Of a stretch of 64,000 nt of DNA, positions 19,904 through 40,666 are shown one piece after another. The position numbers and the translations under genes are program-made. Positions within the stretch are counted from its first letter, which is position 1. Every line of letters begins with the position of its first letter. The notes below the pieces were generated by a model that saw only the letters and a program-made list of their open reading frames with translations, was not told the origin of the DNA and ran no database searches. Origin of the DNA: Paenibacillus sp. BIHB 4019 (lineage in GTDB: Bacteria > Bacillota > Bacilli > Paenibacillales > Paenibacillaceae); the NCBI RefSeq assembly GCF_002741035.1, contig NZ_CP016808.1, positions 6,620,501 through 6,684,500 of the forward strand, read 5' to 3'.

Positions 19904-19984
19904 CTGTTATTGTTATTTTTCATCATAGCAAATAAGCATGCGCGCTAACACTTCCCTATCCTCCGTAGGTTACAGCAGTGTTGT

Positions 19985-22406: not shown

Positions 22407-23510
22407 ATGAGCTCAATTCAATCGTTGTTCAAGCCTTTCACAGCAGGTCCGCTTACACTGCCTAACCGTATTGTAATGGCACCAATGACCCGCGGTTTTT
22501 CTCCAAATGGCGTTCCGGGCGAAGATGTAGTTGCCTACTATAGACGCCGCGCCGAAAACGGCGTTGGCTTAATTGTGACAGAAGGTACGCTGATTAACCA
22601 TCCGGCTGCCACTGATAATCCAAACATTCCCAACTTTCATGGCGAAGCTGCATTAAATGGCTGGGCAAAAGTCGTTGAAGCCGTTCACCAAGCTGGCGGC
22701 AAAATCGTTCCGCAAATTTGGCATGTTGGCACAACCCGCAAGGTCGGCTCCCATCCGAACCCGGAAGCACTGCCGATTGGTCCTTCAGGTGTTACCGCCG
22801 AGGGCGAGGTTGTTAATGAGCCTTTGACCGAAGCCGAAATTAAAGGCCTTGTTGCAGCTTACGCGCAAGCTGCTGCTGATGCAAAACGGATTGGCTTTGA
22901 CGGCATTGAGCTTCATGGCGCACATGGCTATTTGATCGACCAATTTTTCTGGGAGAAAACGAATAAACGGACGGATCGTTATGGTGGCGACATGCTGTCC
23001 AGAACACGGTTTGCGGTCGAGATTATTGAAGCTTGCCGCCAAGCTGTAGGTCCTGATTTCCCGATTATTATCCGCCTGTCGCAATGGAAATCGTCCGAGT
23101 ACACAGCGAAGCTTGCGAGCACTCCTGAGGAATTGGGACAGTTTCTTGCTCCGCTTGTTGAAGCTGGCGTAGATATTTTCCACTGCTCAACCCGCCGCTT
23201 CTGGGAGCCGGAATTTGCAGGCTCGGACCTAAACTTTGCAGGCTGGACGAAAAAGCTTACCGGCAAACCAACGATTACTGTTGGCTCCGTAGGTTTGGAC
23301 GGCGACTTCATGAGCCTCTTCACCGAAGGCAAAGGAGCAGAAAATGCCAATGTGGATGATTTGGCCTCACGCCTGGATGCAGGCGAATTTGATCTCGTAG
23401 CTGTCGGCCGTGCCCTGCTCGTCGATCCTGCCTGGTCCGATAAAGTCCGCGACGGACGGCAAGATGAATTAATTCCGTTTACGCCGGCTGCTTTGCAGAC
23501 GCTGCATTAA
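22407..23510 (+). CDS. NADH:flavin oxidoreductase, Old Yellow Enzyme family, 367 aa
   Basis: FMN-dependent ene-reductase like the gene at 20302 but of another subgroup: the active-site pair is His/His (ELHGAHGYLIDQFFW), and the flavin region is NRIVMAPMTRGFS. It contains the usual NKRTDRYGGD loop after the active site and a C-terminal flavin-phosphate segment (ITVGSVGLDGDF). RBS AGGAGG is nine bases before ATG. It follows the ArsR-like gene and shares its operator, so reduction of the compound sensed by that regulator is its likely role. Confidence 0.92.
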   Translation: MSSIQSLFKPFTAGPLTLPNRIVMAPMTRGFSPNGVPGEDVVAYYRRRAENGVGLIVTEGTLINHPAATDNPNIPNFHGEAALNGWAKVVEAVHQAGGKIVPQIWHVGTTRKVGSHPNPEALPIGPSGVTAEGEVVNEPLTEAEIKGLVAAYAQAAADAKRIGFDGIELHGAHGYLIDQFFWEKTNKRTDRYGGDMLSRTRFAVEIIEACRQAVGPDFPIIIRLSQWKSSEYTAKLASTPEELGQFLAPLVEAGVDIFHCSTRRFWEPEFAGSDLNFAGWTKKLTGKPTITVGSVGLDGDFMSLFTEGKGAENANVDDLASRLDAGEFDLVAVGRALLVDPAWSDKVRDGRQDELIPFTPAALQTLH

Positions 23511-23854: not shown

Positions 23855-24595
23855 CTAATTTTGCCTCGCGAATAACGCTCTAGCCTCTTGATAGCTCTCC
23901 AATGTCCCGATATCAAAGCGCTTCCCTTCAAACTTGTAGGCATGAACCTCTTTATGCCGAATCAGCCAAGGCACAAAATGGCCCGGTGCATCAGCGTTGC
24001 TGCCCTCCGCCAAATATTGCTTGATTAATGGCAGTGTGGACTGCCCGTAAATATAAAACGGCGGACATGCCAAATTGGATTTGGGCTGTTCGGGCTTTTC
24101 CTCAAAAGCTATGACTTTTCCATTGCCATCGGTTTGTATGACACCTGTGCGCCTCAGAAAATCGATATCATCCATCTCATGGGCTGCAATCGTATCTGTC
24201 CCTGAGCTTTGATAGAAATGAACCATTTCGGTTAGTTCAAAGTCGAACAAATTGTCGCCCGCCATAACTAGAACATCATCGTCCAGCTTTTCCTGTTCCA
24301 GAACAAACTGCAAGTCGGCAATAGCCCCTAAACGGTCCTCATTGCTTGTCGTCAGATCATCAATGACTTTAATCGGCTTGGAATAGTCTGATTGGCTCTC
24401 CCAATGAACAAAGTGCCCATAAAAACGATGGTTAGTCACAATAAAAATCTCGTCAATCAAGCTAACTCTTTCAATCTTCTCCATAATATGATCCATGATT
24501 GCTTTCCCTCCAACCTCCAGAAGAGGCTTTGGAAAGTCCCTGGTCAAAGGATACAGGCGAGTTGCGTAACCCGCCGCTAAAATAATGGCCTTCAT
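23855..24595 (-). CDS. sugar-phosphate nucleotidyltransferase, 246 aa
   Basis: Nucleotidyltransferase that would join a sugar 1-phosphate to an NTP, making an NDP-sugar and pyrophosphate. N-terminal signature MKAIILAAGYATRLYPLT with the catalytic Lys in FPKPLLEV, the metal Asp in VLVMAGDNLF, and EEKP near residue 160. Length of 246 fits RmlA/GalU-like short forms. Last gene of the FkbH/NRPS operon, 27 bases after the kinase gene. Kinase plus nucleotidyltransferase is a salvage route to an activated sugar, presumably the donor for the two glycosyltransferases upstream. Confidence 0.85.
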   Translation of the reverse strand: MKAIILAAGYATRLYPLTRDFPKPLLEVGGKAIMDHIMEKIERVSLIDEIFIVTNHRFYGHFVHWESQSDYSKPIKVIDDLTTSNEDRLGAIADLQFVLEQEKLDDDVLVMAGDNLFDFELTEMVHFYQSSGTDTIAAHEMDDIDFLRRTGVIQTDGNGKVIAFEEKPEQPKSNLACPPFYIYGQSTLPLIKQYLAEGSNADAPGHFVPWLIRHKEVHAYKFEGKRFDIGTLESYQEARALFARQN

Positions 24596-24622
24596 TCGTA
24601 TTTCCCTCGCTTCTAACCCCTG

Positions 24623-25807
24623 TTATATAATTCGCGCGCCATCATCGGTTTTGCTGAAGCTTACCTGATATAAATCCTTATACGCTGGATGCTGCTTTGG
24701 ATATTGTGCATCAATGGCGGCTTTGATCTGCTCCTTATATGCGGGATCTACGAGCCCAATGCAGCAGCCTCTATAGCCCGCTCCGCTGAATCTGGCTCCA
24801 TATACGCCTTCTGTATGCTTAAGGATACGGAAAATGCTAATCAGCTCGGGACAGCCGCAATCATAATTATGAATGGAGCTTTCCCCTGATTCAAGCATCA
24901 GGCTGCCGAATTTTTGCAGGTCCCCCTGTTTCCACGCCTCGGCGCCTTGCCTTACACGTTCATTCTCGGTGAAAAAATGCTCCGCCCGCTTTTGAAATCT
25001 GCCTTGCAAGCCTGACTTATGCTCCCGGTAAACCTCATGCTCAATATCTCGGAGCTGGGTCCCTTTCAGATTTTTCATCGGCAACCCGGCCATCTCGTGC
25101 AGGAGCCATGCGGCCACTTTGCATTCATCTACACGGTTGTTATAGTCGGTTCCGATTAAGGCTTTGCTCACACCGGAATAAACAATAACAACTTCAAATT
25201 CCGGCATCGCTTGCGGCCTTTCGATTAATTCATAGCTTTTGGTTTTCGTATCCATTACGGTCAAATAGCCTTCGCGGCTTAAAATATTGATCGACTGGTC
25301 CAGTATGCCATTGTTTAGCCCAATAAAATGATTCTCCACCCAGTGGCTGTAGTTAATGAGCTCAAGCGAAGGGAGTTTGATTCCGTTCACGTCGCAAAGG
25401 GCCAGCAAATAGGCGGTAGTTACCGCTGCTGAAGAGCTCAAGCCGCCAATCGGATGCTTGCCTCTAACCAATGCGCAAATGCCGTACTTTAAAATATTTT
25501 GCTTTCTTAAAGCCAGGACGGCTCCCCTTAAATAATTGCCCCAAAATCCCGGCACCATCGCCGGAACCTGATCCAGATGAAAATATTCCTCGTCGGGGAA
25601 ATCCAAGCTTTGCACTCTTATATATTCTTCTTCATTCTGAACATAAACCATATCCACAGAAATATCCAGCGTCATCCCGGCTACCAGCCCGGCTTGATGA
25701 TCGACATGAGCCCCGAAGGGACAAAAGCGAAGCGGCGATTTAATCGTTTTTACCTGATTTTTAAGATGGGGATATTTAAGCTTTAACCGCTGTTCCAAAT
25801 GGTCCAT
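24623..25807 (-). CDS. GHMP sugar 1-kinase, galacturonokinase/galactokinase-like, 394 aa
   Basis: GHMP-superfamily sugar kinase. The N-terminal substrate motif is PFGAHVDHQAG instead of the GEHTDYN form of true galactokinases; GAHxDHQ is, from memory, the form found in plant galacturonokinase. The ATP loop is HPIGGLSSSAAV, and the third motif GARFSGAGYRGC is intact. Expected reaction: sugar + ATP to sugar 1-phosphate, possibly with D-galacturonate. It starts 52 bases after the second glycosyltransferase, with a GAGGGAG ribosome site, and is followed by the nucleotidyltransferase. A pectate lyase gene lies 10 kb upstream on the same strand, which would fit galacturonate supply. The substrate is inferred. 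Confidence 0.8.
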   Translation of the reverse strand: MDHLEQRLKLKYPHLKNQVKTIKSPLRFCPFGAHVDHQAGLVAGMTLDISVDMVYVQNEEEYIRVQSLDFPDEEYFHLDQVPAMVPGFWGNYLRGAVLALRKQNILKYGICALVRGKHPIGGLSSSAAVTTAYLLALCDVNGIKLPSLELINYSHWVENHFIGLNNGILDQSINILSREGYLTVMDTKTKSYELIERPQAMPEFEVVIVYSGVSKALIGTDYNNRVDECKVAAWLLHEMAGLPMKNLKGTQLRDIEHEVYREHKSGLQGRFQKRAEHFFTENERVRQGAEAWKQGDLQKFGSLMLESGESSIHNYDCGCPELISIFRILKHTEGVYGARFSGAGYRGCCIGLVDPAYKEQIKAAIDAQYPKQHPAYKDLYQVSFSKTDDGARII

Positions 25808-25859
25808 TTCCTACACTCCCTCTTTTTGTGAAGGCAACGTATATCGTAAATATAGGCAA

Positions 25860-26726
25860 TCAGCCCTTCTTCAGCCGTTTTAGCAGCAGCGCTCTTTTCT
25901 CGGGCGAAATGCTGTCCAAAGCAGAGACGCGCTCCTTCCCGGCACCTTGCTCGGGCGCCGCCTCCGCAGCCGTTTCCCGAAACATCGCTTCGAACGCTTC
26001 CCCAACGGCAGCGAGAGGAATTTTCGTCAAATACTTGTCCTTATAAGCTTTCAAATGGGGCTGGCTAACTCTCTGCTCGACCGTCCGCAGCCCTCTTGTC
26101 GACTTCATATGGGCAATGGTTACATCTGCCGTCAATTCTATACCGGTGTAGGATACCAAATCTTCCTTAATTGCATAGACCTGATAGCTGCCCTTATTGA
26201 TTAAACGCGACAATGCCGGGCTTTCCTTATGGTTTTCCGTCCCGTAATACATTTCCTCGCGCCATTCCCGTATGAATGCAGGAGCCTTGGCGATGGAATT
26301 GATCACAAAGAAAGAGGCGATATATTCACAAAAGGCTTCCTGCTCTTCGCGGCGGCAGGCGACGAAATCAACGTCTTCCGGTATTAAACGGGTGAAATCG
26401 GCAAGGAACAGGCAATCGGAATCGATCATGACGGTTGGCAGCGAATCCTTTTCAATGACCTGCAGCAGAAAAGCGGTTTTGGAGTATACATTTTTGCGCC
26501 AGTCCTCATCGTGAAGCAGCACATGCTTCGTGTTCAGCTCGGTTGATACAATTTCCATCTGCGGAAAAACAGACAAATATTTTTTATCGTCCTCGGATAG
26601 TCCCGTATCGTAAACGTACAGCTTATGAATCCGGCTTAAATCGACATTGTCATAAAAGGAATTGACAAACAGCTTTCCAAAGTCAAAATAATCACTGTTC
26701 AATACAGTCATTACATTAAATATCAT
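25860..26726 (-). CDS. GT-A-fold glycosyltransferase with NRPS-linker-like C-terminus, 288 aa
   Basis: Probable nucleotide-sugar-dependent glycosyltransferase. It begins with the typical beta-strand/alpha-helix pattern (MTVLNSDYFDFGKLFVNS) and has DSDC near residue 100 as the likely metal-binding DxD motif; HMKS near 205 could be the late His of the family. The last 20 residues, SISPEKRALLLKRLKKG, are not part of a GT fold; they resemble the helix found at the start of NRPS condensation modules and at the end of the GT4 protein in this operon. The ATG lies inside the end of the NRPS gene (11-base overlap), so the two are translationally coupled. Donor and acceptor are unknown. Confidence 0.75.
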   Translation of the reverse strand: MIFNVMTVLNSDYFDFGKLFVNSFYDNVDLSRIHKLYVYDTGLSEDDKKYLSVFPQMEIVSTELNTKHVLLHDEDWRKNVYSKTAFLLQVIEKDSLPTVMIDSDCLFLADFTRLIPEDVDFVACRREEQEAFCEYIASFFVINSIAKAPAFIREWREEMYYGTENHKESPALSRLINKGSYQVYAIKEDLVSYTGIELTADVTIAHMKSTRGLRTVEQRVSQPHLKAYKDKYLTKIPLAAVGEAFEAMFRETAAEAAPEQGAGKERVSALDSISPEKRALLLKRLKKG

Positions 26727-29700
26727 AGCTCTTCCCCCTGCTAAAAACTTTCTTACTCGCCAGCTGTTTATTTATCCGCTCCAGTTCCCGATCTTCCTCC
26801 TGCTGGATGCGATCCTTATCCCTTATAAACAGCGGCCCCGGAATGGCATCGGGCAAAATATCGTCCATATACCGGAGCGGATTATACCTTAGTCCGAGGA
26901 AGCTCCAGGCCGCCATAAACAAGCCGATTAAAATAAACAGCAGGCCGATTCCCCGTGTCGGTCCCGTGCCTACGAGCCAGCCCAGGCGATTCACAAGCTC
27001 CGGATGATCGACAAACAGCGGCTTGAAAATGTTGTCCGACAGCAGGCCGCCAATATAGTAGCCCAGCGGAATGGTAGGCAAAGCGAACAGCTGATTGATC
27101 GAAAAAACCCTCGCCAGCAGCTCGGCCCGCACCTTGGATTGGATCAGCGTCTGCCAGTGGGCATTTGTCATCGACAGGGAAACACCGTAAGCGAATACGC
27201 CCGCCATAACCAGCCCAACGATCGGCGTTAGCCCCATTACGATGTAGGAAAGGCCGATTAGCAAGCTAAAACCAATCATGCCCTCCGCCCTTCTGCGGGT
27301 ACCGCCCCATAAACCCATAGCGATTCCGCCTGCCAGTCCCCCTATGCCGATGGCCGAGGTCACCATTCCGAGTACAACGGTAGAGCCAAAGGTTAATACG
27401 AGCGGAGTAATAAGGACGTTGGCCATGCCCAGCATCAAATTGGAAACCATAAAAAACAAAATCAATGCCACGAAGCTTTTGCGCTTCCTTATAAAATTCC
27501 AGCCTCCGGCCATTTGGGCCCAAAAGGGCTCTTCAATTTTGCGGAATAAGGAATTTGGAAATCGAATAAAGAGCAAAGTCGATATCGCAAACAGAAAGGA
27601 TAGGAAGTCGATGAAAAGAATGCCCGGCAGCTCAAAAGTCAATACGAGAACGCCCCCAAGCAGCGGTGCCAGCACCTCACTTGAAGAGGTAGCCAGCTGC
27701 ACAATTCCATTGGCTTGGCCGAGATAGCGCTTTGGCGCAATTTGGGCAACTGCCGCCAAGTAGGCCGGACGCTGAAAGGCATTGGCGATCGATATAGCCG
27801 CCACCGCGACATAAATATGCCAGGTCTGCAGCGAGTTGCTGTAAAAGAACAAAGCAATCATAATCGTGACCAGCGCGGAGCAAACATTGCTCCAAATGAG
27901 AATCAGCCTGCGATCCTGCTTGTCCGCTAGAGTACCCGCGAAAGGAAGCATTAGTATCCCGGGCAGGCGATGGAACACCAGCGTTGCGGCAAAATCCATA
28001 ATCGCGCCTGAATGGCTGTAAACCCATAAGCCCATCGCAAAACCTGTCAAGCTGGAGCCCATCATCGAAATAAACTGACCAAATACAAAAATGAAAAGCG
28101 TTCGCAAATTCGTCAGCACTTCCGGCGATGATGCCGTTTCCCGGGTATTTGGGTTATGGTTGTCCTGGTCCCCTCCGTTCTCCTGGTTCTCCTTCTGCTG
28201 CTGCCACGCTTTCAGGCCGGCTCCAATGCTATCCGCTACGGCATGGGACTGGTGCTTGAAAAAATAATGTCCCGCATTCGGGATCAGGTCGATATCCACA
28301 TGGCTGCTGAAAAACTCCCAGTCCTTATACTGCTCCTCGTAAAACTCGGTCGTCCTGTCCCGCTCGCCGACAATGCAAAGCAGCGGCGCCTTTAATTTCG
28401 CGGGCTCAGCAGCGGCATACCGATCCGAGTAATACCGTTCGCTTTCACGACGGTCATGCCTGAGGCTGCGGATAATAAAATCCCGCTCTTCCCCTGAGAG
28501 CGTCTCGCTGAAGCCGCCCAAAGAACGGAGCATATCCATATAGGCACGGTTTGAAATACGGCGGTCCCGTGGCAAAAGCTTGTTCCAGAGCTTGAACAGC
28601 TTGCCCGGCAGCTGCGATACAGGAAAATTCCCTCCCATCACGACACCAGCAAGGCTCATATTCTCTTGCTCCAGCAGTCTAGCTATTTCAATAGCTAGAG
28701 CGCCTCCAAGACAATGCCCGTAGACAACGATGGAGGGTGCTGCCACTTTGTCCTTTATTTCCTGCACACAGCGCCTTGCAACTTCTTCCAAGGGCTCAAG
28801 AGCTTCATCTTTTTTGCTGAAGTCATGCCCAGGAACTTGAACCGCGTACAGTGCGTATTGATCCGCCAGCGCATCCGCTAGCGGCTGATAGGAAATCGCG
28901 CTCCCCCCGGCAAACGGAATACATACGATGGCCACCTCCTCGGAGGCGTCCTTGTCTCTCGAAAGACGGTGGAGAACATCCCCGCTGTCCGTACTGCCCC
29001 GAGAAACGATAGCAGACAGTTCCCCAATCGTCGGATATTTGAACAGATCAATAATGCTCAGCGCATGATCGATTCCCCGAACGACCTGGACCGCCTTGAA
29101 GGAATCCCCTCCCAGACTAAAGAAATCATCGTTAATTCCTATTTTCTCGACGTTCAAAACCTCGGACCATACAGCGGCCATTCTCGCTTCCAATTCGTCC
29201 CGCGGCGCTTCATAGTCGCTTTCCGAAGCTGCTTCTACGGCATTCGGAGCAGGCAGAGCGCTGCGTTCCACCTTGCCGTTAGCGTTCAAGGGCATTTTAT
29301 CCAGTTCCATAAGTACGGCAGGAATCATGTAGCCTGGAAGCTTTTCCTTCAGACTGTTCCGCAATGCGGATAGGCTAACCGGCTGTGAGCCGTCCTGCAC
29401 ATAATAGGCAACGATCCTTTTGTCGCCGCTGGCCTCTTCACGGACGGTCACAAAAGCATCCTTGATGCCGGGGTATTCGAGCAGCGAGGATTGAATTTCT
29501 CCTAGCTCAATTCGGAATCCCCTGATTTTCACCTGCTCGTCAGCCCTGCTCAAAAACTCAATATGGCCGTTTTCCAAATAACGCACAATGTCTCCAGTCC
29601 GGTAAAGGCGTCCGCCCTTCTGCGCGTCAAATCGATTCGGAATAAACTTTTCAGCGGTTAACTCCGGCCTGCCTAAATATGCTCTGGCAACACCAGGTCC

Positions 29701-32289
29701 GCCAATGAATAGCTCGCCGGGAACTCCTATAGGCGCGAGCTGCAAATGTTCATCCAGCACATAGATGGATACATTCGCCAGCGGACGGCCCAGCGGCAAA
29801 ACCGATGTATGCTGCACGGGCCTTTTGTCGGTTACGGTATAGGTCAGCATGGACACCGTCGTTTCAGTCGGCCCGTAATGGATCTGGATCTGCGTTTCAG
29901 GCTTCGCTGCCCTGATGTCATCAATCATGTCCCAATAGGAGGGCTCGCCAGCAAGAATAAGCCGTTTATTAGGAATGATATCGTGAAGGTTCGCCCGCTC
30001 CCGCAGCGCCTTGAAATGGCTTGGCACCATTTTGATGACATCGATTCCGTGTTCCCTGAAATATTTGGCATATTGCTGCGAGTCAACGGATTGGTCATAG
30101 GTCAATATATGAAGCTGCCCGCCCGTATTTAAAGCAGCCCAAACGTTAATGGTGGCGAGGTCAGCCGCAAAGGTGGAAGCAATCGCGTATTTAAGCCCGG
30201 GCTCCACATCCAGCCGCTGCATCACGCCAAAATAGTAATTGAGAAAATTCCCATGCTCGACCGCAACCCCTTTTGGCTTGCCTGTAGAGCCAGATGTATA
30301 GATGATGTAAAACAGATTGGCAGGCTGCAGCGGCACCGCCATATTGTCGCCGCTTTGCCCAGCAATTGCAGGCCAATCGGCATCAAGATAAACCCATTCA
30401 GCAGTTGCTGCATCGCCTAAAGAAACCGTTAAATGCTCCTCTGCAACGATAATATCAATAGAGGCATCGTCCAGTATGTACTTGATGCGGTCAACGGGAA
30501 ACAGCGGATCGAGTGGAACGTAAGCTCCGCCTGCTTTCAAAATGCCCAGAATGCCTACTACGGTTTCCAGTGAACGCTCCGCAAACAAGGCGACTCGTTT
30601 CTCAGCGCCAACTCCTTTCGCGGATAAATAGCGGGCAAGCTTGTTGGCTCTTTGATTGAGCTCCTCGTAAGTGTAGGATCTGCCCTGGCAAGCTGCCGCT
30701 ATCGCATCTGGGCTTATCAGCACCTGCTCCTCAAAGAGCTTGTGAACATACGGAACATCAGGATGATTTTTGTATTCGGAAAAGCTCCATTCTGAGAGCA
30801 GCGTTTGTTTTTCAAGTGGGGTAAGCGTCTCAAGTTCATGAGCCTTTAAGCTTAAGCTGTCAGCCATAGAGGAAACAATCTCCATGTAATGGCCGGCCAT
30901 GCGCTGTATCGTTTCAGGAAGGAATAGATCGGTGTTGTAGGTCAAGAAGCAGGTCATTTCGCCTTCAATGTATTTGACGGCAAGATTCAAATCAAACTTG
31001 GTCGTATTGTTGCTGCGCAAAAAAGGACGGACTTCCAGCTCACTCAGCTGAAGAACGGTTTTCTCCATGCTTTGATAATTAAACATCGCCTGAAAAACCG
31101 GGGAATAGCTCAAATCACGCTCAAGCTGCAATTCCTCCACCAGCTTTTCAAACGGAAGCTCCTGGTTTGCGACTGCACCCATAACCGTTTTTTTGACGGT
31201 TTGCAGCAGCTCCCTCATTCGGGGATTGCCAGACAATTGAATTCTAATCGCAAGGGTATTGATGAACAAGCCCATTAGGCCTTCCACTTCTTTATGGGTA
31301 CGCCCCGCAATCGGCGAGCCAATAACAATATCATCAGCCTGCGTATAGCGATTAAGCAGGATAGCAAAAGCCGTTAATGAAAAAACAAAAGGGGTTATCG
31401 CTTCCGCACTTGCAAGCGTATGGATTTTGTCCGCTATTCCCTCTGGAATAATAAATTTATGAACTTTCCCATTATAGGTTTGAACATCTGGACGGGGAAA
31501 ATCCGTCGTCAATGGCAGACACGGAGGCGCTCCTGCGAGTGTCTCCTTCCAGTATTGAACCTGTCTTTCTGTTACTTTTCCCTCTAATAGATTCCTTTGC
31601 CATACGGCATAATCCATATATTGTACGGGAAGCTCTGGAAGCTCCGGCTGCTGCCCAGCAGCATAGGCATTGTACAGCACTTCAATTTCCTTGTTCATGA
31701 CACGGAGGGACCACATATCCGACACGATGTGGTGAACGACGATAATGAGATAATGCTCCTTTTTTGAGGCAGACAGCAAAGTTACCCGTATAGGCAAATC
31801 GTTGGCCAAGTCAAAAGGGTTATGGACCTCATCGTGGACAAAGTCCTCGATTTCCCCCTCCAGCTTCGTTCTGGTGAAGGCCTTCACGGATTTCTCAGCA
31901 ATCGTCATAACCGGCTTGGGGTGACGGCAGCAATAAACCTCATCCTCATGATTTTGGTAAACCATTTGCAAAATCTCATGCCTGTCCATAATCGCGTCAA
32001 AGGTTTGCTGGAGCGCCTTCACGTCCACCCTGCCCATCAGCTTGGAAACGAGATGGGTATTATAGGCGGCCTTGTTCGTATGCCACATGTCAAGAAACCA
32101 GAAGCGCTTTTGCGCATAGGAGGCGATAAAACGGTCTTCGCCGTTCCTCTCCAGCCGGGTTATCTTCAAGCTTGGCGCCGGCTGCTCTGTACTTTGTTTT
32201 TTCATCCTCAGAGCGAGCAATGCCTTCTGTTTGTCCGAAAGGCCACTCCATTTATCAGCAAGCGCTTCGTTCTCCAATCCTTTACTCAT
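26716..32289 (-). CDS. NRPS with C-A-PCP-TE domains fused to an MFS exporter, 1857 aa
   Basis: Single-module peptide synthetase joined to a transporter. Start ATG 32289 is preferred over 32295 because GGGG lies eight bases before it. Order (approximate residues): N-terminal helix LSDKQKALLALR (17-28); condensation domain (~45-480) with HHIVSDM, where Met replaces the final Gly of HHxxxDG; adenylation domain (~510-1010) with YTSGSTGKPKG, YGPTE and NGKVE; carrier domain with LGGDS (Ser ~1063); thioesterase (~1115-1360) whose nucleophile motif is GHCLGG, Cys ~1193 instead of Ser, with a late His in NAGHYF; then about twelve membrane helices of an MFS exporter (~1395-1830). Hand-derived specificity code DLIKIAHVSK is closest to Asp-type codes. 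It would condense the FkbH-PCP acyl group onto its own amino acid, release and possibly export the product. Its start overlaps the GT4 gene. Confidence 0.9.
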   Translation of the reverse strand: MSKGLENEALADKWSGLSDKQKALLALRMKKQSTEQPAPSLKITRLERNGEDRFIASYAQKRFWFLDMWHTNKAAYNTHLVSKLMGRVDVKALQQTFDAIMDRHEILQMVYQNHEDEVYCCRHPKPVMTIAEKSVKAFTRTKLEGEIEDFVHDEVHNPFDLANDLPIRVTLLSASKKEHYLIIVVHHIVSDMWSLRVMNKEIEVLYNAYAAGQQPELPELPVQYMDYAVWQRNLLEGKVTERQVQYWKETLAGAPPCLPLTTDFPRPDVQTYNGKVHKFIIPEGIADKIHTLASAEAITPFVFSLTAFAILLNRYTQADDIVIGSPIAGRTHKEVEGLMGLFINTLAIRIQLSGNPRMRELLQTVKKTVMGAVANQELPFEKLVEELQLERDLSYSPVFQAMFNYQSMEKTVLQLSELEVRPFLRSNNTTKFDLNLAVKYIEGEMTCFLTYNTDLFLPETIQRMAGHYMEIVSSMADSLSLKAHELETLTPLEKQTLLSEWSFSEYKNHPDVPYVHKLFEEQVLISPDAIAAACQGRSYTYEELNQRANKLARYLSAKGVGAEKRVALFAERSLETVVGILGILKAGGAYVPLDPLFPVDRIKYILDDASIDIIVAEEHLTVSLGDAATAEWVYLDADWPAIAGQSGDNMAVPLQPANLFYIIYTSGSTGKPKGVAVEHGNFLNYYFGVMQRLDVEPGLKYAIASTFAADLATINVWAALNTGGQLHILTYDQSVDSQQYAKYFREHGIDVIKMVPSHFKALRERANLHDIIPNKRLILAGEPSYWDMIDDIRAAKPETQIQIHYGPTETTVSMLTYTVTDKRPVQHTSVLPLGRPLANVSIYVLDEHLQLAPIGVPGELFIGGPGVARAYLGRPELTAEKFIPNRFDAQKGGRLYRTGDIVRYLENGHIEFLSRADEQVKIRGFRIELGEIQSSLLEYPGIKDAFVTVREEASGDKRIVAYYVQDGSQPVSLSALRNSLKEKLPGYMIPAVLMELDKMPLNANGKVERSALPAPNAVEAASESDYEAPRDELEARMAAVWSEVLNVEKIGINDDFFSLGGDSFKAVQVVRGIDHALSIIDLFKYPTIGELSAIVSRGSTDSGDVLHRLSRDKDASEEVAIVCIPFAGGSAISYQPLADALADQYALYAVQVPGHDFSKKDEALEPLEEVARRCVQEIKDKVAAPSIVVYGHCLGGALAIEIARLLEQENMSLAGVVMGGNFPVSQLPGKLFKLWNKLLPRDRRISNRAYMDMLRSLGGFSETLSGEERDFIIRSLRHDRRESERYYSDRYAAAEPAKLKAPLLCIVGERDRTTEFYEEQYKDWEFFSSHVDIDLIPNAGHYFFKHQSHAVADSIGAGLKAWQQQKENQENGGDQDNHNPNTRETASSPEVLTNLRTLFIFVFGQFISMMGSSLTGFAMGLWVYSHSGAIMDFAATLVFHRLPGILMLPFAGTLADKQDRRLILIWSNVCSALVTIMIALFFYSNSLQTWHIYVAVAAISIANAFQRPAYLAAVAQIAPKRYLGQANGIVQLATSSSEVLAPLLGGVLVLTFELPGILFIDFLSFLFAISTLLFIRFPNSLFRKIEEPFWAQMAGGWNFIRKRKSFVALILFFMVSNLMLGMANVLITPLVLTFGSTVVLGMVTSAIGIGGLAGGIAMGLWGGTRRRAEGMIGFSLLIGLSYIVMGLTPIVGLVMAGVFAYGVSLSMTNAHWQTLIQSKVRAELLARVFSINQLFALPTIPLGYYIGGLLSDNIFKPLFVDHPELVNRLGWLVGTGPTRGIGLLFILIGLFMAAWSFLGLRYNPLRYMDDILPDAIPGPLFIRDKDRIQQEEDRELERINKQLASKKVFSRGKSYDI

Positions 32290-33613
32290 GGTCATTACCC
32301 CGGCTTTGATTTTTTTTATTTAACCTTAAGGCGAGCAGCGCCTTCTGCGCAGGAGTAAGCTTGTCGGTCATTTGGGCAACGGCATTCTCTTTGAAGGCAG
32401 GGACGAGCTCTGGCTGCTGCGTATTTTCCGCTCCGACTTGCAAATTCAGCAAATACGCTTCAACCTGCCTGCTGCCTCCCCGATTTTCGATGTAATCCAG
32501 CGCCGCCTCTCTGGAGCGCCGAGATATATCCTCATAGTGCTCCCTTTCATGCAATAAACGCTCCAATGCTTCTTGCCAAGGCTGTATATGCTGCTTCGGA
32601 ATGTCCGATACGGGCAGGCTTCGCTCATCAACGGCTTGCTTATAGCCCTTAATCGGATTTACCGGAAGCACATACTCCACTCCCAGCTTGGCTTCTGGAT
32701 TTCCTCCGACGTCACTTGCCAAAACAGGGATGCCTCGCAGCATAGCTTCTACGATCGTTCTTGATTTGGCCTCAGCCCACAGCGACGGTACGAGCATAAC
32801 GCGGGTTTGGCAGAAAAGCTTGTTCATATCGTCTACTGGATCAAATATCCGAACATTTTTGAGCTCCATTAGCGCTTTCATATCATCGGAGGTTGTACCC
32901 CAGGTCGGTATGGCCGCAAATGCATCGTTAGGAAACGCACGCGCCAGCTCCAGAAAAATGGAAATCCCCTTGTAGGCACACGGATTAACCATCGCAATAT
33001 AGCCTTTATCGAAATTTCCAAAGTCGGGAAAAGGACCATCGCCAAACAAAGAAATGGGCAGCACCTCTGCTTTGAGCTTGGCCCATTGCCACATATAGTC
33101 CTTCAAATAATCGCCAACGACAACAATGGCAGCCGCTTTCCGCAGCAGCTCTGTTTTATCAGGCCCCTCCAAAAAACAATCCGGCCCAAAGGGCAAATAA
33201 AGGGTTGTCCTGGCAAGGTACACGACTCTGGAAGCCGCATAGTTCACGGCGGCCTCCAGCAGTAAATGCCCAACGTCCTCTGTCGAAATTAAAATTCTGT
33301 CGGGCGCAAATTCGTTCATTTGCCGAATCAAATAATCCCTCAACCTTGCGCTGTCCATCGCTGCTCGTACTTTCACAGCATGAATAGCGACACCTTTAAG
33401 GTTGAAAACGGAAACTTCGGGGCTCGAGGCTATAACCTCAAGCTCGTCAACACCCCGCTGGTCTTGTTCTGAGGCACTATTGACCAAAGCTGTAGAAACG
33501 ACGCGGCAATCGTGCCCTAAGCGGCTTAACGCTTCCATCAGCGTTCGATTGGACTTATTGGCTCCGCCAAGTGCAGGGTAATAGGATGCATTTTGAGCTA
33601 GTAAAAGCTTCAT
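32282..33613 (-). CDS. GT4-family glycosyltransferase with NRPS-linker-like C-terminal tail, 443 aa
   Basis: GT-B fold glycosyltransferase: N-terminal acceptor lobe with GGANKSNRTLMEAL, C-terminal donor lobe with SLWAEAKSRTIVEAMLRG and PVLASDVGG, the E-x7-E region of GT4. It would transfer a sugar from an NDP-sugar, in the cytoplasm. After the GT fold, the last ~30 residues (KLTPAQKALLALRLNKKNQ) match the first helix of the NRPS encoded next: QKALLALR is identical in both. The codons differ at synonymous positions. The stop lies eight bases inside the NRPS gene, and the ATG is seven bases after the FkbH-PCP gene. Role: probably glycosylation of the glyceryl or amino-acid product, perhaps while carrier-bound. 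Confidence 0.85.
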   Translation of the reverse strand: MKLLLAQNASYYPALGGANKSNRTLMEALSRLGHDCRVVSTALVNSASEQDQRGVDELEVIASSPEVSVFNLKGVAIHAVKVRAAMDSARLRDYLIRQMNEFAPDRILISTEDVGHLLLEAAVNYAASRVVYLARTTLYLPFGPDCFLEGPDKTELLRKAAAIVVVGDYLKDYMWQWAKLKAEVLPISLFGDGPFPDFGNFDKGYIAMVNPCAYKGISIFLELARAFPNDAFAAIPTWGTTSDDMKALMELKNVRIFDPVDDMNKLFCQTRVMLVPSLWAEAKSRTIVEAMLRGIPVLASDVGGNPEAKLGVEYVLPVNPIKGYKQAVDERSLPVSDIPKQHIQPWQEALERLLHEREHYEDISRRSREAALDYIENRGGSRQVEAYLLNLQVGAENTQQPELVPAFKENAVAQMTDKLTPAQKALLALRLNKKNQSRGNDHE

Positions 33614-33620
33614 CTTTGCC

Positions 33621-35792
33621 TCACTCGCTCTCTTCCCGAAGCAGCAGCTCGATTTCTTCTTCTGTCAGGTTTTCCAAGGCCGCTAATTGTTCAGCAATGG
33701 CGTCCTCATCAAAGCTGCTGAGCAAGCTCGTTTCGACCGCCTCGGCAAGTCCGGCAATCGTAAGCGACCCTTCGAACAGCACCGTCATCGGCAAATCCAC
33801 TTCAAATTCCTCCCGAATTCGGGACAAAATCTGAATCGCTTTGATCGATTCGCCGCCAACCTCAAACAAATTATCCATTACTCCGATTTGCTCAATGACT
33901 AAAACATCTTCCCAAATGGTTAATATTCTTTTCTCAAATTCATTCCTTGGAGCTACGTATTCTGCCCGTTCGCCAGTCTTGCCCTGCGAGGCCGCTTCTA
34001 CTTTCGCGTGGATGCTTCTAGAAGTATTCAAGTGCCGACCAATATCATCCAGCACATCTAAAATAGCCGTATCCGCCCCGCTCGCCGTTTGCTCCGCAGC
34101 TGCATGTACCTCCTCGCGGTAGTGGTCGGCTTTTTCCAGGTAGGACGCAAAGTTTATGGTTCTGGCAAACTCCGCCGTGAACGCATATACTTGGTGATCA
34201 GTCGAAGCCGTGACGTCCTGTTCTCCGATTAAGCTTAAAAATTGACCAGCTGGCTGGTTTTTGGAGGTTGGAACAAAAATGACCTCCACTTCACCCAGAC
34301 CATTGTCCGCCGCCCATTCGCCAAGTCTAGCAAGCATCATATATTCTATCCCTTTGCCTAGAGCTCTACAGCTAAGAAGGAAGCTGTCCACCCTAAGCTT
34401 TGAACCCTGCTTGCGGCAAACGGCCAAGCCGACCATTCCATAGTCTCCAAATCTATCACTTGCGGTTACCGTGAAGCAGCTTACATGGTCTTCGCTGCAC
34501 CGTTTTCTGAGCTCGGCTTCCGAATGCCTGATTGTAGTGAAATTAAATTGATTCACCCTTTGAGTCAACTGAGCGGCTCTTGCCAGCTCCTCATCAACCA
34601 ATGGGGCAATGCTTACGTTCAGCTCCAACCCGCTTATAAACGCTTCGTAGGACAGCATTTCCTGCTGGAACTTATTCCGCTCCGTATTTTGTTTAACCTG
34701 TTCCGTACGGCTTTCGTCTGCCGCAGTCGTGTTTATACGGTCAAATGCCCAAACGTTGCTTAAGTAAAGCGGAATGTCCTCGTCCTTTTCAGGCAAGCAT
34801 AACGTCAGAACTTGGGGACACCGCGCTTTAACCTCCATACATTCGACAGGGTTGTCGTCGATAAAGATGAAGCTGTCGAGGCCCAGATTCAGCTCTTTAG
34901 CCAATGCTTCCAAATTATCCGATTTGCGCTCCCAGTTGATTCTCGAAGCCGCAATGTGTTCGGGTTTGATCAGCATATCAGGCCGGCTCAGCGCCTCTAT
35001 GACATCGCTTTCATTGTTTTTGCTGCAAAGACATAGAAGCATCCCTAAGCGCTGCTGCTCCAGCATAAATGCCTGCAGCTGCTTCCGATAAGGGTCCACC
35101 GCTATCCCTTCAACGCCGTCTTCCCCGCAAATGCCCTTCCACAGCGTCTGGTCGCAATCCAGCACGATTACTTTATAAGGCAGGCTCACAGCCGAATAGA
35201 TTTTTCTGGCAATGACCGTACCTAACGCATCAAAGAAAATTTGTTTGTATGGAATATGTCCCATTTTATCTGAATGAAAATCATAATAATCCGCTACGGG
35301 ATAGAGATCCAAAATGTCAGAAGAAGCCACCGGTAAAATGCCGTTCAGTCCTTGAAGCCCTTGATATAGTCGGCCCTCTATTTCCTTATAATCACAAGCT
35401 GTCTCGGAGCTCCATTCCATCAATGGCGAAGGAGGGCAAATACACACAATATGAATGGCTGATGTGCTCTCTACTGATGTTTTCAATGCATTCAGCAGAT
35501 CAACGATGTTACGGTCAAGCTTGGATTGTATTAAAGCATCCTTCCTGATCTCCGTTTCCAAGCCGTCCTCCACCCTGAACCAATCATCAAAACGAATGAG
35601 AATAACGTTGATCCCGTTGTTTTGGCGCATAGCGCTATAAGGATCTAGCAGCTGCTTGAAAACCTGATTCTCATATTGAATGGCAGTGTTTATTCCGAGC
35701 TTGTCCAACCAAAAAACGAGTGATCTTCTGACGGGTTCTGCGGTAAACGTTGCCGAAAATACGAGATTTAAATCACGACTGATCATATTCAC
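33621..35792 (-). CDS. FkbH-like glyceryl-loading enzyme fused to a carrier domain, 723 aa
   Basis: HAD-superfamily FkbH protein with its own peptidyl carrier domain. Start is a GTG with AAGGGGAG seven bases upstream. Residues ~10-190 are the FkbH N-terminal region (VFSATFTAEP, FKQLLDPYS, FDDWFR); the HAD core has LDCDQTLWKG (Asp212, Asp214) and FIDDNPVE (~310-317); a GNAT-like part follows (~380-545); a linker; then a PCP (~612-690) with VGGES, Ser649. FkbH proteins dephosphorylate 1,3-bisphosphoglycerate and load D-glycerate on a carrier thiol. No fkbG, fkbI, fkbJ or fkbK partners for methoxymalonate are nearby, so plain glyceryl-PCP is the likely product and the donor for the NRPS condensation domain. 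The C-terminus LENLTEEEIELLLREE looks like a docking helix. First gene of the operon. Confidence 0.88.
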   Translation of the reverse strand: MNMISRDLNLVFSATFTAEPVRRSLVFWLDKLGINTAIQYENQVFKQLLDPYSAMRQNNGINVILIRFDDWFRVEDGLETEIRKDALIQSKLDRNIVDLLNALKTSVESTSAIHIVCICPPSPLMEWSSETACDYKEIEGRLYQGLQGLNGILPVASSDILDLYPVADYYDFHSDKMGHIPYKQIFFDALGTVIARKIYSAVSLPYKVIVLDCDQTLWKGICGEDGVEGIAVDPYRKQLQAFMLEQQRLGMLLCLCSKNNESDVIEALSRPDMLIKPEHIAASRINWERKSDNLEALAKELNLGLDSFIFIDDNPVECMEVKARCPQVLTLCLPEKDEDIPLYLSNVWAFDRINTTAADESRTEQVKQNTERNKFQQEMLSYEAFISGLELNVSIAPLVDEELARAAQLTQRVNQFNFTTIRHSEAELRKRCSEDHVSCFTVTASDRFGDYGMVGLAVCRKQGSKLRVDSFLLSCRALGKGIEYMMLARLGEWAADNGLGEVEVIFVPTSKNQPAGQFLSLIGEQDVTASTDHQVYAFTAEFARTINFASYLEKADHYREEVHAAAEQTASGADTAILDVLDDIGRHLNTSRSIHAKVEAASQGKTGERAEYVAPRNEFEKRILTIWEDVLVIEQIGVMDNLFEVGGESIKAIQILSRIREEFEVDLPMTVLFEGSLTIAGLAEAVETSLLSSFDEDAIAEQLAALENLTEEEIELLLREESE

Positions 35793-35898: not shown

Positions 35899-35931
35899 AT
35901 CGTAGACTATCGTCGAATCGTTGTCAACGAA
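35899..35931 (-). promoter_or_regulatory. promoter of the FkbH/NRPS operon with palindromic operator
   Basis: Minus strand: TTGACA (35927-35922), 17-base spacer, TACGAT (35904-35899), about 107 bases upstream of the GTG. The -35 box lies in the 13-base perfect palindrome TCGTTGACAACGA (35918-35930), extended by GAAT/ATTC arms. A repressor binding here would cover the -35. No regulator gene is adjacent. Confidence 0.6.
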
Positions 35932-36475: not shown

Positions 36476-38143
36476 TCAGATCGTTTCCTTGTACAGCTGA
36501 GGGGACTTCCACGATTTGACGGAGCCATCGCCAGCTTCCATATTGGCATGAAAAAAACCTTTACCGTCTATGAATGCTGGGACACCGTGCTGCTTTCCCT
36601 CAATAGCAGCCTGCAGCGCTAGAAGGGCGAGCGGTTCGGCTGTATCGAAATTCGCATACTTGCTGTTTCGGGCAGGGAGAAAATAGCCGAAATGAAATTT
36701 TTTCGCTATGATATTGTCTCCTATTTTTCTAGCCATCTCCAAGTATTTCGGATGTCCGAATGTTAAATATACATCAAGCATCGCATAAAGAGCTCTTGGA
36801 TCATCACATGGCGACCTGAAATCCATATCGGCGTCCACTCCAGGCTCACGGCCTATATCGCCAAGATTATTCCCTTTAGCCATGCTTCTTGCCGCTTCCC
36901 ACAGGCTTTCATCACCCGTATGTATAAATGTCCTTACATAGGCGAGTAAAAATTTGCTGGATGCAGGGAATGGGCATAGGACAGAGGATTTTTTCCCATA
37001 ATAACCGTCCCGTTTAAGCTCGTAGCCAGATAAATCCGTGCCATCCGTAAGCATCGGCCTAAAGCTGTTTGATTCGGAAACATAGCCGTATTTCAACAAA
37101 GCAGATAGACCTTGTCTTGACCATTGTGCAAGCTCCTTCACGACTTCCCCAAGCTCACTTGCAAGCTGAAGCTGCATAATGGGATTTTCATAATAGACGG
37201 TATTGGCCTGCTCCTCCAGCAGCATTTTCCCTTCCAGCGCCGCCTCGCCAAACTCGGGACCAAATTGCCGCTTCGCCCGATCCCCGAATCCGGAGAGCGT
37301 ATTGCTGTCATCCTCCGTATGCTGGACTTTCTTAGCCTGGTTGAACTGATAGGCGCCAAGTCCAGTGATTGGATTTCTCGCCTTGTTATACTGGCGTGCG
37401 AGCCTTTTCAGCCACAGCAGTGCGCCCTTCTCGCCAGCGAGCTTGTACAGCATGCCCGAAGCGTAGATCAGGTCATTGCCCGCATTCAGAAAGGATAGTC
37501 CCTTAACCTCTGAGAAAGGCTCGGCTTCTTGAAACGGACTTGCCCAAAGCCTGCTGCTCTTCAAGCCATAGCTGCCATGGCGGCTAATTTCTAAAGTATT
37601 CCAGTTGAATACATGCGCATTCCATAACGCTCTTATATATTTGACGGTTGCTGCAGGATTAACCTCATACATGAATTCATAATAGGGAAAATGGTTTTTC
37701 AGCTCATGCACCATTCCGCTTTTTTCTATTGCCCCGGAAATATTTAGCGTTTTTAAATCAATAAATCGGTGCCCTCCCCACTGCATGAGGCCGCACTCGC
37801 TTTGAAGATGGTCAAAATGGTACTGAATGGCTGCCTTGCCGGCCTGTTTATATTGCTCATCTCCTGTAAGAAACGTCAGGGCTGCAAAGGTGCGAAAAAG
37901 ATTTTGCTGGCTCGCAAGGTTGGATAACACCGCCTCAGAACCTCCGGGAAACCGCCATTTGATATGCTCCTTTGTCCTTACATTGATTCCGTCCGCAAAT
38001 AGAGGACTAGGCTCGGACCGATAGCAGTCCCGTCCCTCCTTAAGCACATTGTCTGCAAACGCTATGACCGCGTTCAATCTATGCTGATCTCTCGCACTAT
38101 CTTCCACCGATTCACACCATCCTCTTGGATTTTCGGTATTCAA
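36476..38143 (-). CDS. pectate lyase, PL2-like, 555 aa
   Basis: Probable cytoplasmic pectate (oligogalacturonate) lyase. The long helical-barrel sequence, the SPLFADGINV and GGHRFIDLKT stretches near the N-terminus, VHELKNHFPYYEFMYEVN, and SPCDDPRALYAMLDVY near the C-terminus match my memory of family PL2 (PelW-like) enzymes, and 555 aa is the usual length. No signal peptide, consistent with action on imported oligomers. Start is a TTG at 38143 with GGGG eight bases upstream. It lies between the VOC gene (convergent, two-base gap) and a relic zone. It could supply galacturonate for the GHMP kinase downstream. Family assignment is moderately sure. Confidence 0.65.
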   Translation of the reverse strand: MNTENPRGWCESVEDSARDQHRLNAVIAFADNVLKEGRDCYRSEPSPLFADGINVRTKEHIKWRFPGGSEAVLSNLASQQNLFRTFAALTFLTGDEQYKQAGKAAIQYHFDHLQSECGLMQWGGHRFIDLKTLNISGAIEKSGMVHELKNHFPYYEFMYEVNPAATVKYIRALWNAHVFNWNTLEISRHGSYGLKSSRLWASPFQEAEPFSEVKGLSFLNAGNDLIYASGMLYKLAGEKGALLWLKRLARQYNKARNPITGLGAYQFNQAKKVQHTEDDSNTLSGFGDRAKRQFGPEFGEAALEGKMLLEEQANTVYYENPIMQLQLASELGEVVKELAQWSRQGLSALLKYGYVSESNSFRPMLTDGTDLSGYELKRDGYYGKKSSVLCPFPASSKFLLAYVRTFIHTGDESLWEAARSMAKGNNLGDIGREPGVDADMDFRSPCDDPRALYAMLDVYLTFGHPKYLEMARKIGDNIIAKKFHFGYFLPARNSKYANFDTAEPLALLALQAAIEGKQHGVPAFIDGKGFFHANMEAGDGSVKSWKSPQLYKETI

Positions 38144-38309
38144 GCTTCGATCCCCACTATCCTTTTCTCTAGGGTCAAAACAGCTTTTTTAGCAGGTTCA
38201 TAGCTAATATACCATAAATTTACCAAATTTGTGATGGAGCAAGCTTCAACCCACACGTGTGACTACAGTGCTAATTTCATAGTATTGCAGGAGCTAAAGT
38301 GATATTTTG

Positions 38310-38478: not shown

Positions 38479-38479
38479 G

Positions 38480-39427: not shown

Positions 39428-39449
39428 GTGACCCCCATCTTGTTCTTGG

Positions 39450-40600: not shown

Positions 40601-40666
40601 CCGATGTCATTTATTTATTCTTAGCGCTCTGATTAATCTTCAGAAATTCTAATAATGAGATTTATT

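Follow-up and report, generated by a model that had tools for sequence, protein, structure and literature searches.

Closest described systems

Vioprolide, cystomanamide and the suomilide, varlaxin and dysinosin members of the aeruginosin group are made on NRPS lines in which FkbH replaces an adenylation (A) domain and loads glycerate onto a carrier protein (PCP), as excerpts of three papers describe (PMC8949500, PMC10143770, PMC9581180). Xylose on Choi and fructose are the sugars named in these excerpts for FkbH-loaded lines (PMC8949500, PMC10143770, PMC9581180). Excerpts of a docking review state that a carrier protein is not limited to one downstream partner but can recruit several, and that the receiving element can also be found on MT, thioesterase (TE) or halogenase domains; its main text contains no word beginning with "glycosyl" (PMC9113145).

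The locus described here lies in a 64,000-nucleotide stretch of contig NZ_CP016808.1 of Paenibacillus sp. BIHB 4019 (the window). Its operon resembles these lines in its FkbH-loaded PCP, and some of their products are glycosylated according to the same excerpts. The described lines are longer, however, and contain FkbH as a domain within NRPS modules, whereas the window operon has a separate FkbH-PCP protein. It lacks the multimodular backbone of the aeruginosin, vioprolide and cystomanamide lines and has a single C-A-PCP-TE module, with no other NRPS in the window. A glycosyltransferase with a docking tail and a TE-MFS fusion are not mentioned in the excerpts on those lines. Short docking elements are also used in SLiM-beta-hairpin systems, but the element found here is a short helix at a glycosyltransferase C-terminus, unlike the SLiM-beta-hairpin docking domains. 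The GT4 fold is common to the first glycosyltransferase and BshA. BshA glycosylates the hydroxyl of the hydroxy acid L-malate, whereas the window enzyme has an extra linker and helix, and its proposed acceptor is carrier-bound. The window TE resembles those of ObiF1 (obafluorin) and SulM (sulfazecin) in its cysteine nucleophile and its aspartate in position II; type II hydrolases such as RifR likewise have position II. The substrates of ObiF1 and SulM carry a beta-hydroxyl or sulfamate nucleophile, but none is predicted on the aspartate-like residue here. An MFS domain follows the window TE, whereas an MbtH-like domain follows the ObiF TE in the excerpted account (PMC6668435). The titles and abstract starts of open-licence papers yielded no description of a pathway with this gene set, of an NRPS-MFS fusion or of docked or on-line glycosylation, in keeping with the earlier note on this DNA, whose author knew of no such pathway.

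Organization of the operon

Six open reading frames with intact frames occupy 23855..35792 of the minus strand. They are separated by gaps of 7, 52 and 27 bases and joined by overlaps of 8 bases (with the NRPS starting at its third codon; 14 otherwise) and 11 bases. The genes, domains and catalytic motifs are read from the DNA itself, with domain calls from Pfam and NCBIfam profile searches. Both the tight packing and the domain calls made in the earlier note hold. The features are as follows.

35899..35927, minus: promoter-like site TTGACA-17-TACGAT, 5' of the loader gene (consensus match only)
33621..35792, minus: FkbH-PCP loader, 723 aa (TIGR01686, PF00550, motifs)
33624..33677, minus: acidic C-terminal motif of the loader, LENLTEEEIELLLREESE, candidate donor docking element (sequence; putative function)
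32282..33613, minus: GT4 glycosyltransferase 1, 443 aa (PF13692/PF00534; model pLDDT 88.6)
32312..32365, minus: C-terminal docking-type helix of the GT4, residues 417-434, DKLTPAQKALLALRLNKK, after a disordered linker (HMM 21.7 bits)
26716..32295, minus: NRPS-exporter fusion C-A-PCP-TE-MFS, 1859 aa (Pfam)
32197..32247, minus: N-terminal helix of the NRPS, residues 17-33, SGLSDKQKALLALRMKK, the element in common with the glycosyltransferase tails (class used to train the helix HMM)
30796..32133, minus: condensation (C) domain (PF00668, 353 bits; HHIVSD at residues 188-193)
29272..30735, minus: A domain, code D-L-I-K-I-A-H-V-S (PF00501/PF13193; motif anchors)
29011..29181, minus: PCP of the condensing module (PF00550, LGGDS)
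28225..28929, minus: TE, Cys1195 / Asp1313 (position II) / His1343 (ObiF1, 6n8e, 153 bits; residues aligned)
27085..28086, minus: major facilitator (MFS) exporter domain (PF07690, 96.9 bits)
25860..26726, minus: glycosyltransferase 2 (gene 3), 288 aa, DSD motif at residue 102 (GT-A fold model)
25863..25916, minus: C-terminal docking-type helix of glycosyltransferase 2, residues 271-288 (HMM 18.6 bits)
24623..25807, minus: divergent galactokinase-like sugar-1-kinase, 394 aa (GHMP Pfam; GAHVDH replaces GEHTDY in alignment to 1pie)
23855..24595, minus: sugar-1-phosphate nucleotidyltransferase, 246 aa (PF00483, 131 bits)

Three other genomes share the gene order of the window genome, with proteins about 85-95% identical, and comparison with these relatives gives dN/dS of 0.05-0.14; the operon is therefore more than chance, and its six genes are confirmed as a unit. 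The catalytic motifs found are HAD DxDxT, CSKN, both PCP carrier serines, the HHxxxD of the C domain and the GHCLGG of the TE. Within the window, NRPS-type matches are confined to the C-A-PCP-TE-MFS protein and the loader's PCP, as had been claimed; beyond it, adenylation-like matches begin at a distance of about 0.2 Mb, and those that include a condensation part at about 0.7 Mb. A promoter scan of the region returned 26 sites of the listed kind against 17.0 expected (sd 4.0). The neighbours of the operon are carbohydrate-active enzymes.

Loading, condensation and release

The loader consists of an N-terminal region, an FkbH domain (residues 206-526) that scores 283.8 bits against TIGR01686, above the curated cut-off of 146.65 (NCBIfam), and a PCP (residues 622-686) that matches PF00550 (Pfam). 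It carries DCDQT at 212 (HAD DxDxT), CSKNN at 256 and GGESI at 646 (carrier). These matches support the proposal that the protein loads glycerate, with 1,3-bisphosphoglycerate as the putative source of the glyceryl unit.

The Pfam domains likewise agree with a single condensing module fused to an exporter. The NRPS probably starts at its third codon (1857 aa), as its relatives do. Its adenylation code was read via motif anchors across a two-residue insertion, and comparison with a code table suggests with low confidence an aspartate-like amino acid. The MFS domain scores 190 bits against TIGR00900, under the cut-off of 319.6 (NCBIfam). To our knowledge, no NRPS/MFS transporter fusion has a described product.

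The best PDB match of the TE is by far ObiF1 (next, 69 bits). Cys1195, Asp1313 and His1343 align with 6n8e chain positions 1166, 1274 and 1304, each of which is 20 above Cys1146, Asp1254 and His1284 in the excerpted ObiF1 paper (PMC6668435). The nucleophile in GxCxG is a cysteine (GHCLGG), and the alignment excludes a serine thioesterase. Because of this cysteine and the ObiF1-like triad, release may not be simple hydrolysis. No hydroxylase or sulfotransferase is found among the six genes (Pfam). The cysteine nucleophile and the triad had escaped the earlier note.

Glycosyltransferases and sugar activation

The presence of two glycosyltransferases, as first proposed, is borne out for the GT4 by Pfam and for gene 3 by its GT-A model. 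The nearest folds of the GT4 model in a structure search are GT4 enzymes such as BshA, PimA and PglA, and no PDB sequence matches it at E <= 0.001. The model places helices at 409-417 and 421-442 behind a low-confidence linker. Gene 3 has no Pfam or NCBIfam match, and PF03407 is present in several of its relatives. Foldseek aligns its model (pLDDT 88) with GT8-family and other GT-A enzymes at TM of about 0.5-0.6. On this model gene 3 is a GT-A glycosyltransferase, which excludes a non-enzyme; a helix at 275-287 follows a disordered stretch at 257-267.

Pfam agrees with the kinase and nucleotidyltransferase being a sugar-activating pair, with the refinement that the kinase is divergent from galactokinase. 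It scores 196.6 against the galactokinase equivalog, below the cut-off of 226.65 (NCBIfam), and another kinase of the same genome carries GEHTDY. The low score together with GAHVDH excludes a normal galactokinase, and since the enzyme is a divergent relative, the sugar may not be galactose. Galacturonokinase is a tentative alternative suggested by a plant motif. No NCBIfam equivalog is over its cut-off for the nucleotidyltransferase among the best 25 of 40 matches.

A cassette that recurs in Paenibacillaceae

Among 394 genomes of the family, 22 loci were found, and all 22 have the order loader-PCP, glycosyltransferase, C-A-PCP-TE-MFS; the count is a lower bound, as two candidates per genome were scored and further copies are possible. 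The core of the operon is a conserved, recurring three-gene cassette, which excludes a one-off. The TE cysteine motif is present in all 22. The loader is FkbH in four cassettes and A-PCP in the other 18. The conserved neighbourhood that the earlier note suggested looking for thus extends to the full gene order in three other genomes, but not to the 18 A-PCP loci, where no homologue of FkbH, gene 3, kinase or nucleotidyltransferase lies in the fetched stretch. The cassette glycosyltransferases come from different families (13 GT4-like, nine UGT-like), and acidic C-terminal stretches also end loaders of other cassettes. We know of no smaller glycosylating NRPS lines than these cassettes.

A helix common to glycosyltransferases and NRPS

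A helix HMM was built from 104 NRPS N-termini without any glycosyltransferase, and scores of at least 5 bits were counted as matches. It matches 115 of 120 inspected GT4 relatives, 21 of 22 cassette glycosyltransferases (the remaining one reaches 4.3 bits) and 20 of 36 gene 3 relatives. It matches none of 23 other GT4 ORFs of the same genome, none of 142 shuffles and none of the 22 loaders; among 181 other ORFs of 21 context loci it matches three, all gene 3 orthologues. These controls exclude chance or a general GT4 feature. UGT tails score weakly, at 4.3-9.6 bits in eight of nine and 14.4 in the ninth. A beta-hairpin docking domain is excluded, as the element is short and Pfam finds no TubC_N (PF18563) at the window NRPS N-terminus; PF18563 is listed in one relative, P0092.

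The helix also occurs as a linker within fusions, namely UGT-helix-C-A-PCP-TE-MFS (P0017) and GT4-helix-C (L124), and in a partial protein (P0162) a C-domain start lies behind GT4-helix. Like the cassette and the shared helix, these fusions are read directly from the sequences. Directly after FkbH-PCP stands a helix-tailed glycosyltransferase in L122 and L124, two lipopeptide-type lines; by these comparisons they are the only such cases among ten stretches around other FkbH genes. When tails were scored against NRPS N-termini, the own cassette type was best in three of three groups (53.9 vs 41.3 and 27.8; 55.4 vs 38.0 and 27.3; 31.2 vs 25.1 and 23.3), to which shared ancestry within a type may contribute.

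Proposed pathway and alternatives

The earlier note treated glycosylation as ordinary tailoring and overlooked the docking-type helix on both glycosyltransferases. Since this helix is common to both enzymes and to the NRPS start, the sugar may be added to a molecule still on the assembly line. We favor, with a probability of about 0.55, a pathway whose exported product is a small glycosylated N-glyceryl amino acid, the sugar being added by loader-docked glycosyltransferases before condensation. Its docking function, timing, acceptor, sugar, amino acid and product are what we infer from the gene set and the helices. The constant gene order with glycosyltransferases of two families, the HMM matches, the fusions, L122 and L124 and the own-type scores speak for this pathway; the glycine-like loader of L053, the weak UGT tails, the tail-less GT4 members, the FkbH stretches lacking such a glycosyltransferase and the five loci outside Paenibacillaceae speak against it. 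FkbH would load glycerate onto its own PCP. Because their C-termini carry the same kind of helix as the NRPS start, both glycosyltransferases would dock on the loader in the manner of the NRPS and attach sugar to the glyceryl group on the PCP, with the NDP-sugar supplied by the kinase and nucleotidyltransferase. The C domain would couple glycosyl-glycerate to one amino acid, and the cysteine TE would free the product, which the fused MFS domain would then export. The minimal predicted product is sugar(s)-O-glyceryl-aspartate-like residue, a molecule so small that mass spectrometry should confirm it quickly.

Ordinary post-assembly tailoring, in which N-glyceryl-aspartate is released and glycosylated as a free product, is possible though unlikely, with the helix then serving proximity or being a gene-fusion relict. 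In an excerpted account, tailoring enzymes, glycosylating ones included, have the freshly assembled peptide as their substrate (PMC8949500), and tail-less GT4 relatives exist: the tail is absent in four of 19 GT4-family members of cassette genomes (four candidates per genome scored), and one such GT4 (L155) adjoins an NRPS. That this NRPS itself has no N-terminal helix speaks, as a single case, for docking. Alternatively, the helix may do no more than keep the complex intact or bring the glycosyltransferase close to the finished product. Against tailoring of the free product, however, gene 3 relatives keep the helix in alignment while the preceding linker varies, NRPS N-termini share the helix whereas loaders and other ORFs do not, and the glycosyltransferase gene lies between loader and NRPS at all 22 loci. 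An exporter fused to the releasing TE would also leave little time for tailoring in the cytosol.

We give a small chance to glycosylation of the NRPS-bound dipeptide or its amino acid instead of the loader-bound unit. The code of the condensing module is nearly constant while the loaders vary, and such an acceptor would also account for the L053 loader, whose code reads glycine-like by eye (positions 299/301 of L053 and L058 were read in this way) and which would thus offer no hydroxyl to a glycosyltransferase. The code reading is uncertain, however, and what the tail copies is the N-terminal, receiving element of the NRPS, so by position it should meet the loader and not the NRPS's own PCP. 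It is very improbable that the operon makes a precursor of glycolipid, cell wall or polysaccharide, which glycerate transfer would decorate and for which the NRPS-MFS would be only an exporter or ligase: GT4, GT-A and NTP-sugar pairs occur also in polysaccharide loci and the operon has carbohydrate-active neighbours, but its six genes include no flippase, polymerase or lipid-carrier transferase (Pfam), its MFS is fused to a TE, and fusion to a thioesterase is seen in many of the nearest relatives of its GT4.

Loader-docked glycosylation before condensation, if true, would make glycosylation a programmable NRPS step, in which a helix of about 18 residues could recruit a glycosyltransferase to a carrier protein. 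A more speculative and rather doubtful extension is a general NRPS glycosylation system, in which GT4, UGT and GT-A families each acquired the NRPS receiving helix, have a common loader and add sugar to the starter on its carrier ahead of condensation; here the ObiF-type cysteine TE would cyclize the chain to a reactive lactone, anhydride or depsipeptide ring and pass it directly to the fused exporter.

Wider occurrence

The TE-MFS part has 393 protein matches at E <= 1e-20; among the 120 listed, there are entries whose names point to Bacillota, Actinomycetota, Chloroflexota and proteobacteria. The TE cysteine motif is found in 103 of 120 NRPS-MFS relatives; 17 have no pattern match, and none matches with serine. 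Outside Paenibacillaceae, the contexts viewed came from three plasmid records and a Bacillota genome, with longest-ORF calls that are unreliable in GC-rich DNA. All five loci there (in two Embleya, S. clavuligerus and the other Bacillota genome) have NRPS-MFS relatives without a match to the glycosyltransferase queries in their flanks, a comparison that other glycosyltransferase families would escape. A scan of genome contigs returned a single locus. Among 8000 candidates scored, 2326 GT4 relatives were found at E <= 1e-8, including the 120 inspected above; many GT4 and GT4-thioesterase proteins, as yet uncharacterised, form a large group marked by this tail. Judged from database entries and not from sequence, relatives of the NRPS-MFS protein, the GT4 and gene 3 are apparently linked on 10 other contigs, with all three on six of them.

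A docking-type helix on the glycosyltransferases

The six-gene operon on the minus strand (23855-35792) appears to encode an NRPS line in which docking makes glycosylation part of the assembly. This reading is inferred, as are the order of steps, the acceptor, the sugars, the amino acid and the product. At the start of the NRPS N-termini stands a short segment, for example SGLSDKQKALLALRMKK, and the glycosyltransferases close with the same kind of segment at their C-termini: DKLTPAQKALLALRLNKK in the GT4 glycosyltransferase and DSISPEKRALLLKRLKKG in the 288-aa protein (gene 3). An HMM was built from 104 NRPS N-termini, with zero glycosyltransferases in training, and at least 5 bits was taken as a match. 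It matches 115 of the 120 GT4 relatives listed (2326 were found in all), 113 of them at residues 390-429, and 21 of 22 cassette glycosyltransferases, the remaining one scoring 4.3 bits. UGT tails give weak scores, a point against the docking reading. Among gene 3 relatives 20 of 36 match; most of the 16 missed are without a tail in the alignment, while P0262 is tailed yet missed. None of 142 shuffled sequences, 22 loaders or 23 other GT4 ORFs of the genome matches, so that among the genome's 24 GT4 ORFs the window's own is the sole match. Three matches occur among 181 other ORFs at 21 context loci, and they are the three gene 3 orthologues. Both the GT4 and gene 3 models set the helix apart behind a low-confidence linker, and in the gene 3 alignment the helix is kept and the linker is variable.

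Other results weigh mainly against docking. A GT4-alignment search of 394 genomes (E <= 1e-50) found 19 members in 16 genomes, of which 15 carry the tail (13 in cassettes and two in L124, a locus of G348) and four do not (L154-L157, L154 judged by eye). The fetched stretches of three tail-less loci (L155, L156, L157) contain NRPS-type genes; none was matched in that of L154. At L155 the NRPS beside the tail-less GT4 is also without the N-terminal helix, a joint absence that, as one case, would fit a paired element. SIS, HAD, GHMP kinase and NTP transferase genes adjoin this GT4 and NRPS, a combination familiar from heptose-nucleotide pathways. Visual inspection also picked out SIS-like termini close to the GT4 at L154 and L156. 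At five NRPS-MFS loci outside the family, the flanks held no match to the window's glycosyltransferase queries.

Conservation of the operon

The operon is real and conserved. ORF reading of the window recovered all six genes of the earlier note at the same positions and with the same gaps. Pfam/NCBIfam domains run in gene order from FkbH-PCP through GT4, C-A-PCP-TE-MFS and the 288-aa protein, which has no Pfam match, to a GHMP kinase and an NTP_transferase. The set keeps its order in three further genomes (G002, G047, G048), with dN/dS of 0.05-0.14 for all six genes in each of the three comparisons. A syntenic locus in P. algorifonticola is 91% identical to that of the window, whose genome measures 7.25 Mb. 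In 51 genus genomes the FkbH-PCP query (E <= 1e-60) returned full-length orthologues from the window genome and these three only, plus one distant FkbH in a larger open frame. FkbH matches at E <= 1e-40 are present in 71 of 394 family genomes, many within large open frames.

Gene 3 is, as far as its model tells, the second glycosyltransferase that it had been guessed to be. The AlphaFold2 model (pLDDT 88) matches GT-A glycosyltransferases at TM about 0.5-0.6; among these are members of the GT8 family, the catalytic domain of UGGT and enzymes of the histo-blood-group type. The DxD aspartates are invariant in an alignment of 36 sequences including gene 3 itself, and PF03407 is present in several relatives. 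The earlier pathway logic of glycerate loading, two glycosyltransferases, sugar activation and export is mostly right, and the docking-type tail on the glycosyltransferases is the new element beyond it.

The cassette and its recurrence in other lines

The NRPS-MFS query hit 22 places in 16 of 394 family genomes (E <= 1e-290, with scoring of two candidates in each genome and all 22 neighbourhoods read). The order loader-PCP, glycosyltransferase, C-A-PCP-TE-MFS is constant at all 22. Loaders are FkbH-PCP in four and A-PCP in 18, and glycosyltransferases are GT4-like in 13 and UGT-like in nine. Within the fetched stretches, only the four FkbH loci show a gene 3, kinase or nucleotidyltransferase homologue. 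The host genome has a second cassette with an A-PCP loader and a UGT-like glycosyltransferase (C1:5718441-5727325, at 5.72 Mb; L009/L010), whose NRPS is 41% identical to that of the window. By eye, a P450-like protein lies upstream of it and a beta-lactamase-like protein downstream, the latter also found at L055, L059 and L060.

Fusions occur as well. P0017 is a single UGT-helix-C-A-PCP-TE-MFS protein. L124 begins with an 1853-aa protein (AMP-binding domain, carrier, C, FkbH-PCP). Directly after it comes a GT4 with the helix tail, and next a 2686-aa protein in which a second GT4 is succeeded by the helix and C-A domains. At L122 (G332) a similar FkbH protein precedes both a UGT with the helix tail, scoring 8.0 bits, and an NRPS that has the N-terminal helix. 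The order FkbH-PCP, glycosyltransferase, C domain therefore recurs with different glycosyltransferase families. It was present in two of the ten FkbH stretches read (L064, L122-L130), and these comparisons found no such glycosyltransferase in the other eight. Among the 120 GT4 relatives, 78 are at least 640 aa long, 73 of these with a motif of the GxSxG type located after the helix region, and most are listed with a thioesterase domain. Such GT4-helix-thioesterase fusions of about 640-700 aa (P0149 and similar) are many and uncharacterised, and named entries include Bryobacteraceae and Rhodospirillales MAGs.

Adenylation codes

Codes were read via motif anchors and by eye, and their assignments, by comparison with a code table, are presumptive. 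GT4-type A-PCP loaders have a tyrosine-like code, DAST[VI]AAVC, in seven of nine loci, the other two not being read. UGT-type loaders have DVWQ..LVF in eight of nine and a glycine-like code in one, which was counted against docking. The module code, DL(T/I/P/S)K(I/M)AHVS, is nearly constant across 22 of 22 cassettes. DLTKIAHVS is commonest among the 120 relatives (33), followed by DLIKIAHVS (11); 18 were unread and others partly read. The module may activate an aspartate-like amino acid, at low confidence because a two-residue insertion precedes the key aspartate.

Thioesterase and export

The PCP-TE stretch aligns best with ObiF1 (6n8e, 153 bits), followed by 6vap (thioesterase, 69), 2k2q (surfactin thioesterase subunit, 66) and 8w2d (64), presumably SulM. 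The aligned Gln-Ala-Asn of 8w2d agrees with the Cys-to-Ala version of the SulM Gln-Cys-Asn motif described in PMC11298585. Cys1195, the position-II Asp1313 and His1343 of the operon TE align with ObiF1. The products are a beta-lactone for ObiF1 (PMC6668435) and a beta-lactam for SulM (PMC11298585). Among NRPS thioesterase domains, PMC11298585 names only ObiF1 and SulM as having the position-II aspartate; this residue is also present in type II hydrolases, RifR among them. A strained-ring product is therefore possible. A beta nucleophile is not among the predictions, and the triad by itself is no proof of ring closure. That docked glycosyltransferases of three families acting on a carrier-bound starter, ObiF-type ring closure and fused export would all be combined here is improbable, and slightly more so after this look at the triad.

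The TE-MFS part has 393 protein matches (E <= 1e-20). Two large multimodular NRPS frames of a 3.8-Mb Bacillota genome (L070 and L071, G700) end in a cysteine TE-MFS unit, and the final adenylation code of each differs from the DLTK type.

Sugar activation and neighbouring genes

The operon kinase is galactokinase-like but scores under the curated cut-off, and GAHVDH stands at its galactokinase GEHTDY site; another kinase of the same genome has the standard motif. The NCBIfam matches listed for the nucleotidyltransferase include no fitting equivalog. Gene context makes galacturonate a candidate sugar, since a pectate lyase and further carbohydrate-active enzymes are encoded nearby. The adjoining region (36476-47353) holds this pectate lyase (PF06917), a GH43/GH32-like protein, a GH5 with ricin-B lectin and a 1628-aa S-layer protein with CBM35. 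On the other side of the operon lie the following features:

19975-20172, minus strand: cobalamin riboswitch (RF00174, 102.9 bits)
20302-21420, plus strand: old-yellow-enzyme-type FMN oxidoreductase (Pfam/NCBIfam)
22407-23510, plus strand: second old-yellow-enzyme-type FMN oxidoreductase (Pfam/NCBIfam)

The riboswitch precedes genes for a solute-binding protein and a peptide-type ABC transporter, and the oxidoreductase pair sits between it and the operon. At the oxidoreductase site the three relatives (G002, G047, G048) have a 367-aa ORF that agrees in size and strand.
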